Part shown: positions 6,511 to 15,825 of the stretch, in pieces | How positions within the stretch are numbered: the stretch's first letter is position 1 | Layout: each line of letters begins with the position of its first letter | Translations under genes and position numbers: made by a program | Source: Desulfobacterales bacterium | GTDB lineage: Bacteria > Desulfobacterota > Desulfobacteria > Desulfobacterales > SpSt-501 | Assembly (NCBI GenBank): GCA_030834695.1 | Contig: JAUQXK010000143.1 | Location: 1-64,000, forward strand | Length of the DNA: 64,000 nt | Reading direction: 5' to 3' | The notes under the pieces: model-generated | What the model was told of the DNA's origin: nothing | Databases searched by the model: none | What the model saw: only the letters and a program-made list of their open reading frames with translations

Positions 6511-8049
6511 CTATAGCCCCGCCTCCTCCTGCACGGGATGGGTCTTGAGATACTCCAGCCGGTTCAGGCCGTTGATGTAGGCCTTGGCGCTGGCCGTGAT
6601 GATGTCCGGATCGGCCCCTTTGCCTAGCGCGAGCAGCCCGTTTTCGCGCAGGCGCACGGTGACTTCGCCCATGGCGTCCGTGCCGCCGGTCAGGGCGCTG
6701 ATGGAAAAGCGCAGCAGCTCCGAGGCCGTGCCCGTCAGCCGGCCGATCGTGTTGAAGGCGGCGTCGATCGGCCCATTGCCGTAGCCGGCATCCCGAACGG
6801 GCCGGCCGTTGATCTTCAGCCGCACGCTCGCCATGGGCAGCACCGTGGTCCCGGACGTGACGTGCAGGTAGTCCAGGACGAAGACGTCGGCGGTGCGCAG
6901 GATCCCCTCGGTGACGATCGCCTCCAGGTCCTCGTCCAGCACGTTCTTCTTCTTGTCGGCCAGCTCCTTGAACTTGGTGAAGACCAGCTCCACCTCATCG
7001 TCAGAGAGGTCGTAGCCCAGGTCCTTGAGCTGAGTGCGCAGGGCGTGCCGGCCGGAATGCTTGCCCAACACCAGCCGGCTGGCGCTCAGCCCGATGGTCT
7101 CCGGCTTCATGATCTCGTAGGTCATGGGGTTCTTGAGCACCCCGTCCTGGTGGATGCCGGCCTCGTGCGCGAAGGCGTTGGCGCCGACCACGGCCTTGTT
7201 GGGCTGGACCATGATGCCCGTGATCATGCTCACCAGGCGGCTGGTCGGATGGATGAACTCGGTGTGGATGCCGGTGCCGGCTTTGAGGAAGTTGGCCCGG
7301 GTGTGCAGGGCCATGACCACCTCTTCGAGCGAGGTGTTGCCGGCCCGCTCGCCGATGCCGTTGATGGTCACTTCGGCCTGGCGGGCGCCGGCGCGGATGG
7401 CGGCGAGCGTGTTGGAGGTCGCCAGCCCCAGGTCGTTGTGGCAGTGGACGCTCAGGACCGCTTTTTGAATGTTGGGGGTGTGCTCGCGGACGTAGCGCAC
7501 CAGTTCGCCGAACTCCTCGGGCACGGCATAGCCCACCGTGTCCGGAAGATTGACGGTGGTGGCGCCGGCCGCGATCGCGGCTTCGAACACCCGGCACAGG
7601 TAGTCCCGGTCGCTGCGCGAGCCGTCCTCCGCCGAGAACTCGACGGTATCGGTCAGGGACTTGGCGTAGCGCACCGCTTCCACGGCGGCCTTGACCACCT
7701 CCTCGCGGCTCATCTTCAGCTTGTACTGCAGGTGGATGTCCGAGGTGGCGATGAAGGTATGGATGCGCGGCCGGGCGGCATGGCGGACCGCCTGCCAGGC
7801 CCGATCGATGTCGCCCCGCGAGGCCCGGGCCAGCCCGGCCACTTCGGTCTTCTTGAGCCGGCCGGCGATCTTGGAAACGGCTTCGAAGTCGCCTTCCGAT
7901 GCCGCCGGAAACCCGGCTTCGATGACGTCCACTCCCAGTTTTTCCAGCTGAACCGCAATGCGCAGTTTTTCAGCCGTGTTCATGCTCGCGCCGGGGCTTT
8001 GCTCGCCGTCGCGCAGCGTCGTGTCGAAGATGATGACGGGGTCGGTCAT
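6511..8049 (-). CDS. leuA: 2-isopropylmalate synthase
   Basis: A 512-aa enzyme condensing acetyl-CoA with 2-ketoisovalerate, the first step of leucine synthesis. The HMGL-like TIM barrel starts with DTTLRDGEQSPGASM and includes the metal-binding SVHCHNDLGLA motif. A C-terminal LeuA dimer/allosteric domain (about 390-505, with RDAGYGNGPIDAAFN) indicates leucine feedback control. It is the last gene of the ilvB-ilvH-ilvC-cimA-leuA run, 46 bases after cimA. leuB, leuC and leuD are not in the window. Confidence 0.95.
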   Translation of the reverse strand: MTDPVIIFDTTLRDGEQSPGASMNTAEKLRIAVQLEKLGVDVIEAGFPAASEGDFEAVSKIAGRLKKTEVAGLARASRGDIDRAWQAVRHAARPRIHTFIATSDIHLQYKLKMSREEVVKAAVEAVRYAKSLTDTVEFSAEDGSRSDRDYLCRVFEAAIAAGATTVNLPDTVGYAVPEEFGELVRYVREHTPNIQKAVLSVHCHNDLGLATSNTLAAIRAGARQAEVTINGIGERAGNTSLEEVVMALHTRANFLKAGTGIHTEFIHPTSRLVSMITGIMVQPNKAVVGANAFAHEAGIHQDGVLKNPMTYEIMKPETIGLSASRLVLGKHSGRHALRTQLKDLGYDLSDDEVELVFTKFKELADKKKNVLDEDLEAIVTEGILRTADVFVLDYLHVTSGTTVLPMASVRLKINGRPVRDAGYGNGPIDAAFNTIGRLTGTASELLRFSISALTGGTDAMGEVTVRLRENGLLALGKGADPDIITASAKAYINGLNRLEYLKTHPVQEEAGL

Positions 8050-8095: not shown

Positions 8096-9706
8096 TTACG
8101 CCATCTTCAGCGGCAGCGGTTCCTGCCGGTTGCTGCGCAGCGCCTTTTCGCGGGCCAGTTTGTATTGGAAGCTGTCTGCGAGCGCCTGCCAGCTGGCTTC
8201 GATGATGTCCTCGGACACGCCGATGGTGCTCCAGATGTGATCCTGGTCGCGGGAGTCGATCAGCACCCGCACCCGGGCGGCGGTGCCGCGGTTGCCGTCG
8301 ATCACGCGCACTTTGAAGTCCGTCAGGCGCATGGTGTCGAGATCCGGGAAGAACCGTCCCAGGGCCTTGCGCAGGGCATTGTCCAGGGCGCTGACCGGGC
8401 CGTAGCCCTCGGCGGCGGTGATCTCGGCCTTGCCGCCCACCCGGACCTTGACGGTGGCGTGGGATTGGCAGGGCTGGTCTTTGTCCTTCTCGATGGTGAC
8501 CCGGAACGACTCCAGCTCGAAGAGCGGTCGGAAGGTGTCCGTCAGCTTTTCGATGAGGACCTTGAAGGAGCCGTCCGCCACGTCGAACTGGTAGCCGCTC
8601 TGCTCCAGTTGCTTGACCTCCGCGACGATGCGGCGGCTGTCGATCCCGCCGGCCTCCAGATCGAGGCCCAGCTCGCGGGCCTTGTACTCCACGTTGCTCT
8701 TGCCGGACAGATCGGACACCAGCACGCGCCGCTGGTTGCCGACCAGCCCCGGATCCATGTGCTCATAGGCCTCCGGCGTTTTCATGATGGCGCTGACATG
8801 CACGCCGCCCTTGTGCGCAAAGGCGCTGCGGCCCACGAACGGGCGGCCGTGCAGGGGCACGACGTTGGCCGTCTCGCCCACCAGGCGCGACAGCGATTTG
8901 AGCTTTTTGATGTTGGCGGCCGACATGCAGGGTCGTCCCATTTTCAGAGACAGGATCGGAACGATGGCGGTCAAATCGGCGTTGCCGCAACGTTCGCCGT
9001 AGCCGTTGACGGTGCCCTGCACCATGACCGCCCCGGCTGTCACCGCGGTCAGGGAGTTCGCTACGGCCAGGCCGCAGTCGTTGTGCGTATGGATGCCGAG
9101 GCGCACCCGGCCCAGCCGGCTGCGCACGTCGGCGAAAACGGGTGGGATGTCGAAGGGCAGGCTGCCGCCGTTGGTGTCGCACAGCACGATCACGTCCGCT
9201 CCGGCCTCGGCGGCCGCGGCAACCGTGGCCAGGGCGTACTCGCGATTATGTCGGAAGCCGTCGAAAAAATGCTCGGCGTCATAAATGACTTCGCGGTGGT
9301 TCCGCCGCAGGAAGGACACGCTGTCGCGGATCATGGCCAGGTTTTCTTCCAGGCGAGTTTCCAGCACTTGCGTGACGTGCAGATCCCAGCTCTTGCCGAA
9401 GATGGCGGCGACGGAGGCCCCGCTGGCGATGAGGGTGTTCAGCTGAGGGTCTTCTTCGGGCCGCCGGCCGGGCTTGCGCGTGCACCCGAAGGCGGCCAGG
9501 CGGGCGTGTTTGAAGGAGCTGCGCCGCGCCAGCTCGAAGAATTGCATATCCCGGGGATTGGATCCGGGCCAACCGCCCTCGATGTAATGGATGCCGATGT
9601 CGTCCAGACGCAGGGCGATCTTCAGCTTTTCCTCGGCGCTGAACGAGATGTTCTCGCCCTGGGTCCCATCGCGAAGGGTCGTGTCGTAGAGCAGAATCGG
9701 TTCCAT
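8096..9706 (-). CDS. cimA: (R)-citramalate synthase
   Basis: A 536-aa paralogue of LeuA that condenses pyruvate with acetyl-CoA, giving a threonine-independent route to 2-oxobutyrate and isoleucine. It opens with LYDTTLRDGTQGENISFS, typical of the CimA subfamily (TQGE rather than LeuA's EQSP), carries LGIHTHNDCGLA as the metal site, and has a C-terminal regulatory domain with AEGYGPVSALDNALRKAL. It lies between ilvC and leuA on one strand, consistent with a single branched-chain operon. The assignment against LeuA rests on subfamily motifs. Confidence 0.88.
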   Translation of the reverse strand: MEPILLYDTTLRDGTQGENISFSAEEKLKIALRLDDIGIHYIEGGWPGSNPRDMQFFELARRSSFKHARLAAFGCTRKPGRRPEEDPQLNTLIASGASVAAIFGKSWDLHVTQVLETRLEENLAMIRDSVSFLRRNHREVIYDAEHFFDGFRHNREYALATVAAAAEAGADVIVLCDTNGGSLPFDIPPVFADVRSRLGRVRLGIHTHNDCGLAVANSLTAVTAGAVMVQGTVNGYGERCGNADLTAIVPILSLKMGRPCMSAANIKKLKSLSRLVGETANVVPLHGRPFVGRSAFAHKGGVHVSAIMKTPEAYEHMDPGLVGNQRRVLVSDLSGKSNVEYKARELGLDLEAGGIDSRRIVAEVKQLEQSGYQFDVADGSFKVLIEKLTDTFRPLFELESFRVTIEKDKDQPCQSHATVKVRVGGKAEITAAEGYGPVSALDNALRKALGRFFPDLDTMRLTDFKVRVIDGNRGTAARVRVLIDSRDQDHIWSTIGVSEDIIEASWQALADSFQYKLAREKALRSNRQEPLPLKMA

Positions 9707-9800: not shown

Positions 9801-10850
9801 CTACTTCCGGTTCTCCGGCCGCAGGGAGCGCACGGCAGTCCCCGCGCGCCACATTTCCGAGTCGTGCATGGCCGCGAGCTCCTTGTCGAGCTTCTGGCGG
9901 TAGTCGGCTGTGCTGTTGGCCTGCAGCACGCGGCGCGTCTCCTCGCCGGTCTTGACGCGCTCATAGAGCTGTTCGAACAACGGCGTCACCGCGTCCCGGA
10001 AGCGGGGCGCCCAGTCCAGCGCGCCGCGCTGGGCCGTGGTGGAGCAGTTGGCGAACATCCAGTCCATCCCTTTTTCCCCGACCAGACCGATGAGGCTCTG
10101 GGTCAGTTCTTCGACGGTCTCGTTGAACGCCTCGCTGGGGCTGTGGCCGTGCCGGCGCAGCAGGTTGTACTGGGCCTCCATCACGCCGGCCAGGGCGCCC
10201 ATGAGAATCCCGCGCTCGCCGGTGAGATCGCTGACGACTTCGCGTTCGAAGGTCGTGGGGAAAAGGTACCCGGAGCCGATCCCGATTCCGAGCGCCAGCG
10301 CTTTTTCGCGGGCCTTGCCCGTGAAGTCCTGGAAGACGGCAAAGCTCGCATTGATGCCGCTGCCGTCGAGGAAGTTGGTGCGCACAGTGCGGCCGGAGCC
10401 TTTCGGCGCCACCAGGACGACATCGACGTTCGGGGGCGGGATGATGCCGGTCTGGTCCTTGTAGACGATGGCGAAGCCGTGCGAGAAGTAAAGCGTGTTG
10501 CCCGGCTTCAGGCAGGCCTTGATCTTGGGCCACATGGCCACCTGGCCGGCGTCGGAGAGCAGGTACTGGATCACCGTGGCGCGCTCGGCGGCTTCCTCCG
10601 GGGAAAACAGGGTCTCACCGGGGACGAAGCCGTCGGCCAGGGCGCGGTCCCAGGATTTTCCGCCCTGGCGCTGGCCGATAATCACGCGCAGGCCGTTGTC
10701 GCGCATGTTGAGGGCCTGGCCCGGGCCCTGGACGCCGTAGCCCACGACGGCCACCACCTCGTTCGCCAGCACCGCGCGCGCCTTCTGCAATGGGAATTCA
10801 TCTTCCGTCACCACTTCTTCCATGACTCCGCCGAAATCGAATTGTGCCAT
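9801..10850 (-). CDS. ilvC: ketol-acid reductoisomerase
   Basis: A 349-aa NADPH/Mg-dependent enzyme converting acetolactate and acetohydroxybutyrate to dihydroxy acids in valine, leucine and isoleucine synthesis. The N-terminal Rossmann motif is VVGYGVQGPGQALNMRDNG; PKGSGRTVR and the metal-binding acidic helix (DLTGERGILMGALAGVMEAQ) follow. The length is near that of short class I enzymes. It is the third gene of the ilv operon; an imperfect palindrome separates it from ilvH upstream. Confidence 0.93.
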   Translation of the reverse strand: MAQFDFGGVMEEVVTEDEFPLQKARAVLANEVVAVVGYGVQGPGQALNMRDNGLRVIIGQRQGGKSWDRALADGFVPGETLFSPEEAAERATVIQYLLSDAGQVAMWPKIKACLKPGNTLYFSHGFAIVYKDQTGIIPPPNVDVVLVAPKGSGRTVRTNFLDGSGINASFAVFQDFTGKAREKALALGIGIGSGYLFPTTFEREVVSDLTGERGILMGALAGVMEAQYNLLRRHGHSPSEAFNETVEELTQSLIGLVGEKGMDWMFANCSTTAQRGALDWAPRFRDAVTPLFEQLYERVKTGEETRRVLQANSTADYRQKLDKELAAMHDSEMWRAGTAVRSLRPENRK

Positions 10851-10997: not shown

Positions 10998-11486
10998 CTA
11001 TTTCGGTTCCCGAATCAGTCCGATCGGCCCCGTGCGTGCGAGCTTTTTGATTCCATAAGGTTTCAACAGGTTCAAAACCGTCTGCACCTCTTCCTGCTCG
11101 CCGGACACCTCGACGATCAAGTGACTCAGTCCCGCATCGACGATCTTCCCCTGCGCCAGATCCACGATCCGCAGCACTTCGGCGCGTTGTTCCGGCTTGA
11201 CCGTGACACAAGCCAGCGCCAGTTCGCGCCGCACGCAGCCGGGGCCGTTCAGGCTGCGCAGCTTGATGACGTTGACCAGCTTGCGCAACTGCTTTTCGAT
11301 CTGCTCGACCACCGGCGGGTTGGCCTGGGTCGCGATGGTGATCCGCGACACCCGGGGGTCGTTGGTCGGACTGCCGCAGATGCTTTCGATATTGAAGCCC
11401 TTGCCGCTGAAGAGCCCCGCGACCCGGGACACCACTCCCGGCTCGTTGTCGACCAGCATGGTCATGACGTGCTTCTCGGTGTTCAT
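10998..11486 (-). CDS. ilvH: acetolactate synthase small (regulatory) subunit
   Basis: A 162-aa protein with an N-terminal ACT domain (VDNEPGVVSRVAGLFSGKGF) and a C-terminal small-subunit domain, the usual size for IlvH/IlvN. It binds the IlvB catalytic subunit and confers valine feedback inhibition. ATG 11486 follows an AAAGGA ribosome site. It is second in the operon, 104 bases after ilvB; that spacer contains a strong stem-loop. Confidence 0.94.
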   Translation of the reverse strand: MNTEKHVMTMLVDNEPGVVSRVAGLFSGKGFNIESICGSPTNDPRVSRITIATQANPPVVEQIEKQLRKLVNVIKLRSLNGPGCVRRELALACVTVKPEQRAEVLRIVDLAQGKIVDAGLSHLIVEVSGEQEEVQTVLNLLKPYGIKKLARTGPIGLIREPK

Positions 11487-11590: not shown

Positions 11591-13276
11591 CTACACCAGA
11601 AGCATTTCCGTGAGCGGCGCTCCGGACGGCACCATCGGATAGACGCCTTCCTCGGCTTCCACCACGAAATCGATCATCACCGGCCGGCGGACGGCCAGGG
11701 CCTCCTGAAGCACCGGAACGACGTCCGCGGGCTGGGTGGCGCGCAGGCCGACGGCGCCGTAGGCTTCGGCCAGTTTGACGAAATCCGGAGCGTGGTCCAT
11801 GCGCGTGGCGCTGTAGCGCTTGCCGAAGAAGAGCTCCTGCCACTGGCGGACCATGCCGAGGTAGCCGTTGTTGAGAATCACGATCTTGACCGGCAGCCCG
11901 TATTGAACGGCCGTAGCCAATTCCTGGATGTTCATCTGGATGCTGCCATCGCCGGCGATGTCGACGACGGTCTTGTCGGGGCAGGCGATTTGGGCGCCGA
12001 TGGCCGCCGGCAGCCCGAACCCCATCGTGCCCAGGCCGCCGGAGGTGATGAAGTGGTCGGGGTGGTCGAATCGGTAGAACTGGGCCGCCCACATCTGGTT
12101 CTGGCCGACCTCGGTAGCAATGATGGCCTCGCCGCGGGTCAAGGCGTGGACCTGCTCGATCACATATTGGGGTTTGATGGCTCCCCCGGATTGATAGGCC
12201 AGGGGCTGGGAGCGCTTCCAGTCGGCGATGCGTGCGAGCCACGGCGCGCGGCGGTCCGCCAACCCGGCCAGCCGGGCGTCGGTGACCATTTCGTCGAGCA
12301 GCTGCAGGCTGATGCGGCAGTCGCCGACGACGGGGATGCCGACCTGCACGTTCTTGCGGATCGACGTCGGGTCGATGTCGATGTGGACGATCTTGGCCTG
12401 GGAGGCGAACAGGTCGGTTTTGCCGGTCACGCGGTCGTCGAAACGGACCCCCACGGCCAGGAGCAGATCGCAGGCTCCGGTGCTCATGTTGGCGGCATAG
12501 GTGCCGTGCATGCCGATCATCCCGAGAAACAGAGGATCGCCGCCCGGGAATGCGCCGAGCCCCATGAGCGACGTGGTGACCGGAATCATGGTTCGGCGGG
12601 CCAGCCGGGTCAGGGCCTCACTACCGCCGGACCGGAGGACGCCGCCGCCTGCGAAAATGACCGGCTGTCGAGCCTCCTCGATCAGCCGGGCGACCTCGCT
12701 CAGTTGCTTGCGGTGAGGCTGGTAGGTCGGGTTGTAAGAGCGCAGGTAGACGTCGCCGGGCGGTTCGTAGACGCTGCGGCCGCTGGCGACATCCTTGGGG
12801 ATGTCGATCAGTACAGGCCCCGGCCGTCCGGAGCGCGCCAGGAAAAAGGCCTCCTTGACGGTACGGGCCAAGTCGGCGATCGATTTAACGAGGTAGTTGT
12901 GCTTCGTGCAGGGGCGGGTGATGCCGACGATGTCCACCTCCTGGAAGGCGTCGTTGCCGATCAGATGGGTGGGCACCTGGCCGGTGAGAATGACGATCGG
13001 GATCGAATCGGCGTGGGCCGAGGCGATTCCGGTCACCGTGTTGGTGGCGCCGGGACCGGAGGTGACCAGGCAGACCCCAACCTTGCCGCTGGCCCGGGCG
13101 TAGCCGTCGGCGGCGTGCACGGCGCCCTGCTCGTGCCGGACGAGAATGTGGCGGATGTCGGTGCGGGCCAGTTCGTCGTAGATGTCGATTACGGCCCCCC
13201 CGGGGAATCCGAAAATCGTGTCCACGCCTTCCTGCTTCAACATCGTCATCAGGATCTGGGCGCCGGTCATTTCCAT
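11591..13276 (-). CDS. ilvB: acetolactate synthase large (catalytic) subunit
   Basis: A 561-aa thiamine-diphosphate enzyme making acetolactate or acetohydroxybutyrate, the first common step of branched-chain synthesis. The N-terminal domain starts TGAQILMTMLKQEGVDTIFG with the catalytic Glu region (LVRHEQGAVHAADG); the C-terminal ThDP motif is GDGSIQMNIQELATA. ATG 13276 was chosen because GGAGA lies just upstream; an earlier in-frame start at 13306 falls within the leader terminator. First structural gene of the operon, preceded by a leader peptide and attenuator. Confidence 0.95.
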   Translation of the reverse strand: MEMTGAQILMTMLKQEGVDTIFGFPGGAVIDIYDELARTDIRHILVRHEQGAVHAADGYARASGKVGVCLVTSGPGATNTVTGIASAHADSIPIVILTGQVPTHLIGNDAFQEVDIVGITRPCTKHNYLVKSIADLARTVKEAFFLARSGRPGPVLIDIPKDVASGRSVYEPPGDVYLRSYNPTYQPHRKQLSEVARLIEEARQPVIFAGGGVLRSGGSEALTRLARRTMIPVTTSLMGLGAFPGGDPLFLGMIGMHGTYAANMSTGACDLLLAVGVRFDDRVTGKTDLFASQAKIVHIDIDPTSIRKNVQVGIPVVGDCRISLQLLDEMVTDARLAGLADRRAPWLARIADWKRSQPLAYQSGGAIKPQYVIEQVHALTRGEAIIATEVGQNQMWAAQFYRFDHPDHFITSGGLGTMGFGLPAAIGAQIACPDKTVVDIAGDGSIQMNIQELATAVQYGLPVKIVILNNGYLGMVRQWQELFFGKRYSATRMDHAPDFVKLAEAYGAVGLRATQPADVVPVLQEALAVRRPVMIDFVVEAEEGVYPMVPSGAPLTEMLLV

Positions 13277-13302: not shown

Positions 13303-13345
13303 CCAAAAAAAAATCCGTTACCGCCTTGGGGGCTGGTAACGGACT
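13303..13345 (-). terminator. attenuator terminator of the ilv operon
   Basis: Read on the minus strand, a 9 bp perfect stem (TCCGTTACC pairing with GGTAACGGA; 13335-13343 and 13314-13322) with a 12-base loop is followed by a run of T residues (13304-13313). It lies between the leader peptide stop (13372) and the ilvB start (13276), exactly where an intrinsic attenuator belongs. Confidence 0.88.
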
Positions 13346-13371
13346 TTTTGCTTCTCGGTTTCGGGGTGCGC

Positions 13372-13470
13372 TTAGGCCATTACCAACCCTTTCTCATCAT
13401 CGCCGACGATGACGCCGGCGATGATAATAATAAGGCTAAGAAGGCTAATAATGGCAAACGGCTGATTCAT
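13372..13470 (-). CDS. ilv operon leader peptide (attenuation peptide)
   Basis: A 32-codon open frame starting at ATG 13470 and ending TAA at 13372. Its central part reads IISLLSLIIIIAGVIVG, with runs of Ile, Leu and Val codons, the three amino acids made by the downstream operon. It is followed by the intrinsic terminator at 13303-13345 and then ilvB. By analogy with known ilv and leu leaders, ribosome stalling at these codons when branched-chain tRNAs are uncharged would prevent terminator formation. The antiterminator pairing was not worked out. The ribosome site before ATG is weak. Confidence 0.82.
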   Translation of the reverse strand: MNQPFAIISLLSLIIIIAGVIVGDDEKGLVMA

Positions 13471-13492
13471 GCAGTTATCCGAATTTTTCTGA

Positions 13493-13521
13493 AAGCTAAC
13501 AGCCGGAATGAAAGAAGTCAA
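13493..13521 (-). promoter_or_regulatory. candidate sigma-70 promoter of the ilv leader
   Basis: On the minus strand TTGACT (13521-13516) is spaced 17 bases from TAGCTT (13498-13493). The -35 box is good and the -10 box is poor. It lies just upstream of the leader peptide and downstream of topA, the position expected for the attenuated transcript. Confidence 0.35.
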
Positions 13522-13542: not shown

Positions 13543-15825
13543 TTATGCTTCAACGGGTTCCTTGAAGCCGCAATCGGGGTTGAGGCATATCTGCAGAGCG
13601 CCCTGCTTCTTGGTGGCGCGCGCCACGAGGAATTTGGCGCCGCAGGCCGGGCACGGACGGGCGACCGGCCGGTCCCAGGATGCGAAGCCGCACTCCGGGT
13701 AGCGGCTGCAGCCGTAAAACACCTTGCCGCGCTTGGAGGTTTTTTCCAGGACGTCGCCGGTGCAGCCCTCCTGCGGGCACTTGACGCCGATGCTCTTGGC
13801 CGAGCCGTTGATGGAGAGCGACTGGGTGTTCTTGCATTCGGGAAACCCGCTGCAGGCAAGGAAATCACCGTACCGTCCGCGTTTAAGCACCATCGGCTTT
13901 CCGCATTTCTCGCAGACCTTGTCGGTGGCTTCGCTGACCGGCGGAGCCACGGCTTGAATGTGTCCTTTTTCGTCGCGGGTGTAATCGCTGGAGTATTTGC
14001 ATTCGGGGTACCCGCTGCAGGCCAGAAAATGCCCGTTCTTGCCGATCTTGATGTGCAGGGCCTTGCCGCACTCCGGGCAGGCCAGGCCGGTCGCCACGCC
14101 GATGCCCTTGATGCTCACCATTTTTTCGGCAGCGGCGTCGAGGTCTTTGCGGAACGGCCGGTAGAACCGGGTCAAAAGCTCTATGGAGTTGGCTTTGTCG
14201 GACTCCACCTGATCCAGGCTTTCTTCCAGCCGAGCGGTGAACTCGACATCGAAGATGTCCGGAAAGCTCATGACGAGCAGGTCGTTCACGATGAGGCCCA
14301 ACTCGCTGGGACGGAAGTAGCCCCGGAGGAACTCCACATACCCCTTGTCGCGGATGGTGGAGAGAATGGCGGCATAGGTGCTCGGCCGGCCGATGCCGTT
14401 TTCCTCCAGCTCCTTCACCAGCGAGGCCTCGGAAAACCGCGGCGGCGGCTGGGTGAAATGCTGCTTGGGCTCCAGGCGCTGCAGGCCGAGCCGGTCGCCC
14501 ACCGCCAGAGCCGGCAGCTGCTCTTTGCCTTTTTCGCCGTTGACGTCGTTGTCCTCATCGTCGACCCGGTAGAGCGCCATGAATCCGGGAAATTTCACGG
14601 CCGAGCCGCTGGCCGCAAATCCATAGGGCCCGGCGGCGATGGCGGCGGATACCTGATCGATCAGGGCCTCCTGCATCTGGGAGGCGATAAACCGTTGCCA
14701 GATCAGCTGATAGAGGGCCTGTTGGTCTTTGTTGAGGAACGGCGCAACCGTTTCGGGCGTGTGGGCGGAGGCGGTCGGGCGGATGGCTTCGTGCGCGTCC
14801 TGGGCCTGCTTCGTGTTGCGGAACTGCCGCGGCCGTTCGAGCGCGTAGTCTTGGCCGAACCGCTCCAGGATCAGCTCACGCGCTTCGGCGGCGGCCACGT
14901 CCGCAATCCGGGTCGAATCCGTGCGCATGTAGGTGATCAGGCCGACCGGTTCGCCCGGCCCCAGGTCGATGCCCTCGTAGAGCTGCTGGGCGATCATCAT
15001 GGTCTTCTTGGCGGTAAACCGCAGCCGCCGGATCGCCTCCTGCTGCAGTTTGCTGGTCGTGAAAGGCGGGGGTGGATTTTTATGCACCGTCTTCTTCTGG
15101 ACTTTGTCCACGACGAAGCTCTTGCCCTGCAGTTCGGCCAGGATTTTTTGAGTTGCGGTCTCGTCCGGGATGGTGAGCTTTTCTCTGCCTTTCTTGACGA
15201 GCTTGGCCGTGAAGGGCGGTGAATCGCCGACCGCGAGGTGGGCGGTGATGGACCAGTACTCCTGGGGCACGAAGGCCTGAATCGCCCGTTCGCGTTCGCA
15301 GATGATGCGCAGGGCCACCGTCTGCACCCGCCCGGCGCTCAGGCCGCCCTTGACCTTGCGCCACAGCAGCGGCGACACCTGGTAGCCGACCAGCCGGTCG
15401 AGGATTCGGCGGGCCTGCTGGGCTTCGTATTTGTGGCGGTCGAGATCCTCGGGCGCGGCGATGGCCTTCTGGATGCCGTCCTTGGTGAGCTCGTGGAACA
15501 GGACGCGGTGGAAGCGGCGCCCCTTTTTCTTGAGCACCTCGGCCGTGTGCCAGGCAATGGCTTCGCCCTCGCGGTCCGGATCCGGTGCCAGATAGATGTC
15601 CTCGGCCGACCCGGCGGCCTTCTTCAGCGCCTGAATCACCGCCTGCTTGCCGGGGATGGTGGTGTATTCCGGCGTGAACCCGTCCTCCACGTCGATCCCC
15701 ATCTCGCGCTGCGGCAAGTCCCTGATGTGGCCGATCGTGGCGGCCACGTTGTAGGCGTCTCCCAGATATTTCTTGATCGTCCGGACTTTGGCCGGCGATT
15801 CGACGATTACCAACGGTTTGGACAT
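13543..15825 (-). CDS. topA: DNA topoisomerase I
   Basis: A 760-aa type IA topoisomerase relaxing negative supercoils. A Toprim domain at the N terminus (IVESPAKVRTIKKYLG; DPDREGEAIAWH) is followed by the catalytic tyrosine motif GLITYMRTDSTR. Four C-terminal zinc-ribbon repeats follow, the first three ending in CSGYPEC, CSGFPEC and CSRYPEC and the last in CLNPDC. ATG 15825 (MSKPLV) is preferred over the longer frame. It lies downstream of dprA on the same strand, a common bacterial pairing, 26 bases apart. Confidence 0.95.
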   Translation of the reverse strand: MSKPLVIVESPAKVRTIKKYLGDAYNVAATIGHIRDLPQREMGIDVEDGFTPEYTTIPGKQAVIQALKKAAGSAEDIYLAPDPDREGEAIAWHTAEVLKKKGRRFHRVLFHELTKDGIQKAIAAPEDLDRHKYEAQQARRILDRLVGYQVSPLLWRKVKGGLSAGRVQTVALRIICERERAIQAFVPQEYWSITAHLAVGDSPPFTAKLVKKGREKLTIPDETATQKILAELQGKSFVVDKVQKKTVHKNPPPPFTTSKLQQEAIRRLRFTAKKTMMIAQQLYEGIDLGPGEPVGLITYMRTDSTRIADVAAAEARELILERFGQDYALERPRQFRNTKQAQDAHEAIRPTASAHTPETVAPFLNKDQQALYQLIWQRFIASQMQEALIDQVSAAIAAGPYGFAASGSAVKFPGFMALYRVDDEDNDVNGEKGKEQLPALAVGDRLGLQRLEPKQHFTQPPPRFSEASLVKELEENGIGRPSTYAAILSTIRDKGYVEFLRGYFRPSELGLIVNDLLVMSFPDIFDVEFTARLEESLDQVESDKANSIELLTRFYRPFRKDLDAAAEKMVSIKGIGVATGLACPECGKALHIKIGKNGHFLACSGYPECKYSSDYTRDEKGHIQAVAPPVSEATDKVCEKCGKPMVLKRGRYGDFLACSGFPECKNTQSLSINGSAKSIGVKCPQEGCTGDVLEKTSKRGKVFYGCSRYPECGFASWDRPVARPCPACGAKFLVARATKKQGALQICLNPDCGFKEPVEA

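Follow-up and report, generated by a model that had tools for sequence, protein, structure and literature searches.

The minus strand of the window analysed here, a 64,000-nucleotide stretch of a Desulfobacterales genome, raises the question of what stands between the topA stop at 13543 and the ilvB start at 13276, and whether it controls the branched-chain genes that follow. A preliminary description, made from the sequence alone, had placed a leader peptide and a terminator there. The element is very likely a ribosome-mediated transcription attenuator of the trp/ilv type that controls the ilvBHC-cimA-leuA operon.

Leader, competing helices and operon

The leader ORF lies exactly as the preliminary description gave it, with 32 codons between an ATG at 13470 and a TAA at 13374-13372. 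Ile, Leu and Val account for 14 of its 32 residues (7 I, 4 L, 3 V), and its Shine-Dalgarno sequence is weak (CGGATAA). The predicted promoter, downstream of the neighbouring topA, consists of a -35 element TTGACT (13521-13516) and a -10 element TAGCTT (13498-13493) separated by a 17-nt spacer that ends in TGT, a TGn extended -10. A TTGAC element is found upstream in 20/20 leaders checked, the window's leader counted. The -10 hexamer is poor, which is why a strict consensus promoter scan left the window promoter unscored.

The terminator (UCCGUUACC-agcccccaaggc-GGUAACGGA plus 9 U) spans about 13344-13305. Its 9 bp stem and T run, described earlier as preceding ilvB, are correct; the run holds 9 T, and the ilvB ATG at 13276 follows 28 nt past it. 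A consensus terminator scan does not pick up this hairpin because its loop is 12 nt long. NCBIfam models confirm the five downstream genes that had been named. Gaps between the operon genes measure 46-147 nt and contain no terminator by a simple scan; as the attenuator itself escapes that scan, the negative result is weak evidence. A covariance-model search finds one copy of the element in the host genome. A second IlvB-like protein is encoded elsewhere in this genome (G000:C119:27700-29328, 40% identity) without this attenuator.

Table 1. Features of the leader region and the downstream operon, in window coordinates
Feature	Coordinates	Strand	Evidence
Predicted sigma-70 promoter	13493..13521	minus	sequence; TTGAC upstream in relatives
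Leader ORF, 32 codons + stop, MNQPFAIISLLSLIIIIAGVIVGDDEKGLVMA	13372..13470	minus	sequence; homologous leaders in relatives
Segment 1 (GCCAUUAUUAGCCU)	13442..13455	minus	14/14 pairs in MFE fold; covariation
Control-codon stretch IISLLSLIIIIAGVIV, codons 7-22	13405..13452	minus	sequence; codon content
Central hairpin inside ORF (AUCAUCGCCG...CGGCGAUGAU)	13396..13425	minus	fold; covariation
Segment 2 (GGGUUGGUAAUGGC)	13376..13389	minus	covariation; stop-codon position
Segment 3 (CCGUUACCAGCCC)	13330..13342	minus	covariation
Segment 4 (GGUAACGGAU region), 3' arm of intrinsic terminator	13313..13323	minus	fold; covariation
Terminator U run, 9 T	13305..13313	minus	sequence
ilvB, acetolactate synthase large subunit	11591..13276	minus	TIGR00118, 844 bits
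ilvH, acetolactate synthase small subunit	10998..11486	minus	TIGR00119/PRK11895
ilvC, ketol-acid reductoisomerase	9801..10850	minus	TIGR00465
cimA, citramalate synthase	8096..9706	minus	TIGR00977, 713 bits
leuA, 2-isopropylmalate synthase	6511..8049	minus	TIGR00973

Segment 1 (GCCAUUAUUAGCC) sits inside codons 6-10, itself contains Ile/Leu control codons, and pairs with segment 2 to form the protector helix 1:2. Segment 2 (GGGUUGGUAAUGG) overlaps the end of the ORF and is common to the protector and the antiterminator 2:3, while segment 3 is common to the antiterminator and the terminator 3:4. Helices 1:2 and 2:3 are mutually exclusive, as are 2:3 and 3:4. The preliminary description had proposed a search for an antiterminator by RNA folding, and segment 2 indeed pairs at 13/13 contiguous positions with the 5' half of the terminator. 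The other helices in the window comprise 14 pairs (1:2) and 10/11 named pairs (3:4), and the named-pair energies are -16.2, -19.3, and -14.4 kcal/mol for 1:2, 2:3, and 3:4, respectively. The fold of 13303-13480 reaches -74.3 kcal/mol versus -45.5 +/- 4.3 kcal/mol for 200 shuffles (z -6.7).

In constrained folding, blocking segment 1 in RNA that ends before segment 4 gives the complete antiterminator of 13 pairs, and blocking segment 2 gives the terminator. At equilibrium the terminator wins in the full leader, even with segment 1 blocked; antitermination must therefore be kinetic, decided during transcription. When the no-ribosome case is folded as RNA truncated ahead of segment 4, helix 2:3 forms in preference to 1:2, and termination of the untranslated leader therefore requires 1:2 to form first. 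Known attenuators likewise decide during transcription; thus the equilibrium result does not contradict the attenuation model, and static folding cannot prove it.

Conservation, covariation and gene context

The gene ilvB was found in 53/58 relatives. A first scan of ilvB upstream regions gave homologous Ile/Leu/Val-rich leaders at about 18 loci; at many of the remaining loci, another coding sequence runs up to ilvB, which is ilvD in those followed up, and in the ilvD-ilvB genomes the element precedes ilvD. All 53 relatives with ilvB carry the element. It is absent from 2/58 relatives (G013 and G055), both among the five in which ilvB was not found. A covariance model built from the alignment of 18 relatives' leaders matches 253/291 genomes of the host's order. 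In a draw from the class the element occurs in 137/147 genomes, every listed one belonging to the same order, and genomes of the phylum that lie beyond the order carry it only sporadically (8 of about 191). Additional weak opposite-strand matches of the model at the same place were taken to be palindrome artefacts of the terminator.

Covariation appears in all helices of the 18-leader alignment and is least clear for 1:2. Paired cells amount to 95% for 2:3, 93% for 3:4, and 77% for the central hairpin, with covariation scores that 0/500 shuffles reach in each case, and to 88% for 1:2, for which 36/500 shuffles reach the score and 2/500 the double changes; because shuffling does not take out the effect of relatedness, these counts and those below are not probabilities. 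Slid registers, in which relatedness is retained, also fall far below the true registers, to 18-61% paired in the 18 leaders. A larger alignment of 72 leaders was modelled with 1:2, the central hairpin, and 3:4, leaving 2:3 out. Its paired cells are 88% (1:2), 93% (2:3), 95% (3:4), and 89% (hairpin), and each of the four helices beats 200/200 shuffles, the central hairpin having the strongest covariation. One A/G position of segment 2 covaries with a U/C position of segment 3, itself covarying with an A/G position of segment 4; these linked changes keep both competing helices.

The coding features are conserved along with the pairing. Ile, Leu, and Val make up 51% of frame 0 codons in the 72 leaders, compared with 22% and 7% in the two alternative frames; by mechanical count the leader frame is open in 69/72 versus 2 and 15 for the others. 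Without exception (72/72 leaders), the stop codon falls inside segment 2 or no more than 5 nt away from it. Alignment across relatives, which had been suggested as a check, thus bears out the conservation of the Ile/Leu/Val peptide codons.

The downstream region was examined for 92 elements. The next recognised gene is ilvB in 38, ilvD in 32, cimA in 10, and a leuA-like gene in 7; the rest comprise one leuC behind a small ORF, two aromatic genes, and two elements for which no gene within reach could be assigned. The codons of the leaders match the pathway downstream, being Ile/Leu/Val-rich in general and Leu-rich before leuA-like genes and leuC. The Leu share is 0.58 in leuA-like-gene leaders versus 0.33 in ilvB/ilvD leaders, although all seven leuA-like leaders belong to a single family and so amount to about one event. 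The ilvD leaders of genomes with a leuA-like leader are Ile/Val-rich. An apparent Ile-specificity of cimA-first leaders (p 0.002 in 6 cases) lost significance with all 10 (p 0.09) and was dropped.

In that one family (L167, L168, L169, L199-L202), a divergent gene resembling isopropylmalate synthase has a Leu-rich attenuator of its own. The protein is nearest isopropylmalate synthase models yet scores below all curated cut-offs. Clear paralogy of the leuA-like and ilvD leaders in this family was weakened as a proposal, since they share 75-79% identity but have about 75% to others. Four Leu codons in succession (MHKSEPGIFLLLLIDMGALPCPEDAG) mark the leader at L207:1643-1784, which precedes leuC; the ORF between its terminator and leuC is small and, judged by eye, HicB-like. 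It is a real though tentative possibility that one ancestral attenuator of the order serves as a movable sensor, copied before ilvB, ilvD, cimA, leuA-like genes, and leuC, with its codons rewritten from Ile/Leu/Val to Leu and its switch kept.

Proposed mechanism and rival explanations

Direct support for ribosome-mediated attenuation, the reading that the preliminary description had proposed, comes from the anatomy of the element, its gene context, its conserved and covarying exclusive pairings, its codon content, and the place of its stop. The locus contains the sequence and structural features expected of such an attenuator: an ORF with control codons, an exclusive antiterminator and terminator, a 1:2 protector, a stop at segment 2, and a terminator before the cognate genes. 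Ribosome stalling, its kinetics, the tRNA dependence, and readthrough of the whole operon would belong to the mechanism as follows. Transcription would begin just after topA, and a ribosome would translate the leader with RNA polymerase ahead of it. When charged Ile, Leu, and Val tRNAs are plentiful, the ribosome would reach the stop at segment 2 and mask that segment, so that 3:4 would pair and transcription would stop before ilvB. Shortage of any of the three tRNAs would stall the ribosome in codons 7-22, which would keep segment 1 unpaired and segment 2 free. Helix 2:3 would then form before segment 4 is made, no terminator would arise, and ilvBHC-cimA-leuA would be transcribed. Without translation, 1:2 and 3:4 would form and transcription would stop.

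If the hairpin were simply the topA terminator, ilvB had its own promoter beyond it, and the ORF-like stretch had arisen by chance, the position about 200 nt past topA and the constant advantage in equilibrium folding would be accounted for. However, the same element stands before ilvD, cimA, leuA-like genes, and other ilvB genes, at many loci without topA found upstream, and topA is separated from the leader by a conserved TTGAC promoter element. Conservation of the peptide, antiterminator, and protector refutes this explanation, which we regard as exceedingly improbable. A leader of the T-box, riboswitch, or protein-binding kind, with direct sensing of tRNA or an amino acid, would resemble this element, as it too would be structured and have a terminator and an antiterminator. 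In that case the ORF would be incidental, but conservation extends to its open frame, its Ile/Leu/Val content, and the position of its stop, and its codons track the downstream pathway. No Rfam family, T-box and amino-acid leader families included, reaches its gathering score in the window or at 16 related loci, and T-box covariance models have no match in the window at E <= 10, making direct sensing very unlikely. Rfam matches in the window at permissive E-values are chance matches only.

Another reading takes the ORF to encode a small membrane protein with a role of its own and the RNA structure to be secondary; in its favour, the hydrophobicity of the peptide would suffice for a transmembrane helix. 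Across relatives, however, composition is kept and not sequence, only M1 and G28 being invariant. The last residues of the peptide are set by the RNA pairing, the stop shifts from frame to frame, and parallel leaders before aromatic genes are Tyr/Phe-rich, all of which argue that a functional membrane protein is extremely unlikely here.

Known attenuators and other leaders of the order

The E. coli-type ilvGMEDA, ilvBN, and leuABCD attenuators have leaders with Ile/Val/Leu codons and competing 1:2, 2:3, and 3:4 helices. The present element is like them in these respects, in the intrinsic terminator before the first gene, and in codons matched to the pathway, a likeness of described architecture and not of compared sequence. 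Unlike those attenuators, it belongs to a different lineage, carries control codons inside segment 1, has a separate covarying hairpin inside the ORF, and matches no Rfam leader family. Its operon also differs, being ilvBHC-cimA-leuA here and ilvD-ilvB in many relatives. The Corynebacterium ilvBNC leader (ilvB-II motif; PMC10272879, PMC11857589) resembles it by description, unaligned, in having a regulatory short ORF and an attenuator before ilvB, but comes from an unrelated lineage, and the present element matches no Rfam model. The attenuator peptide before the ilv-leu operon of Staphylococcus aureus (PMC5794164) likewise senses peptide codons ahead of branched-chain genes, whereas that leader is reported as Leu-rich and belongs to a different phylum.

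Among amino acid attenuators, Rfam includes only those for His, Leu, Thr, and Trp, and Ile/Val attenuators are characterised yet absent from it (PMC3766115). A literature search returned no description of the element in the host's order, though subscription papers, for example the 2004 survey by Vitreschak and colleagues, may mention it; PMC545781, on delta-proteobacteria, does not mention ilv. The element is apparently new to this lineage and absent from Rfam, and its covariance model would serve as a new RNA family. Its mechanism is an ordinary, textbook one, while its order-wide spread is unusually pervasive. In almost the whole order of these sulfate-reducer relatives, ribosome-mediated attenuation very probably controls branched-chain synthesis. 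This places the family well outside the gamma-proteobacteria, the group in which amino acid attenuator motifs are suggested to have originated (PMC3766115). The match between leader codons and pathway would make gene function readable from leaders.

A second attenuator-like family occurs in the host's order, with a short Tyr/Phe/Trp-rich leader of about 19-36 codons (e.g. MANTYAAQYFYFYWYYYFSTGLPGVALRSI) upstream of ADTH synthase (2-amino-3,7-dideoxy-D-threo-hept-6-ulosonate synthase) in an aromatic pathway operon. These leaders lie at L213-L239 (e.g. L234:1269-1438 and L216:1293-1462) and at L203:1670-1823, and 26/30 loci reach 7/12 aromatic residues. Their CAGGCAGA/TCTGCCTG helix is often accompanied by a terminator-like hairpin. 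The window's own genome has no ADTH synthase at E <= 1e-60. At L195:597-735, in a different member of the phylum, a shikimate kinase gene is directly preceded by a Tyr/Phe-rich leader (MFAQQSRPDFYYFYYTRRGTGLPRD) and a terminator.
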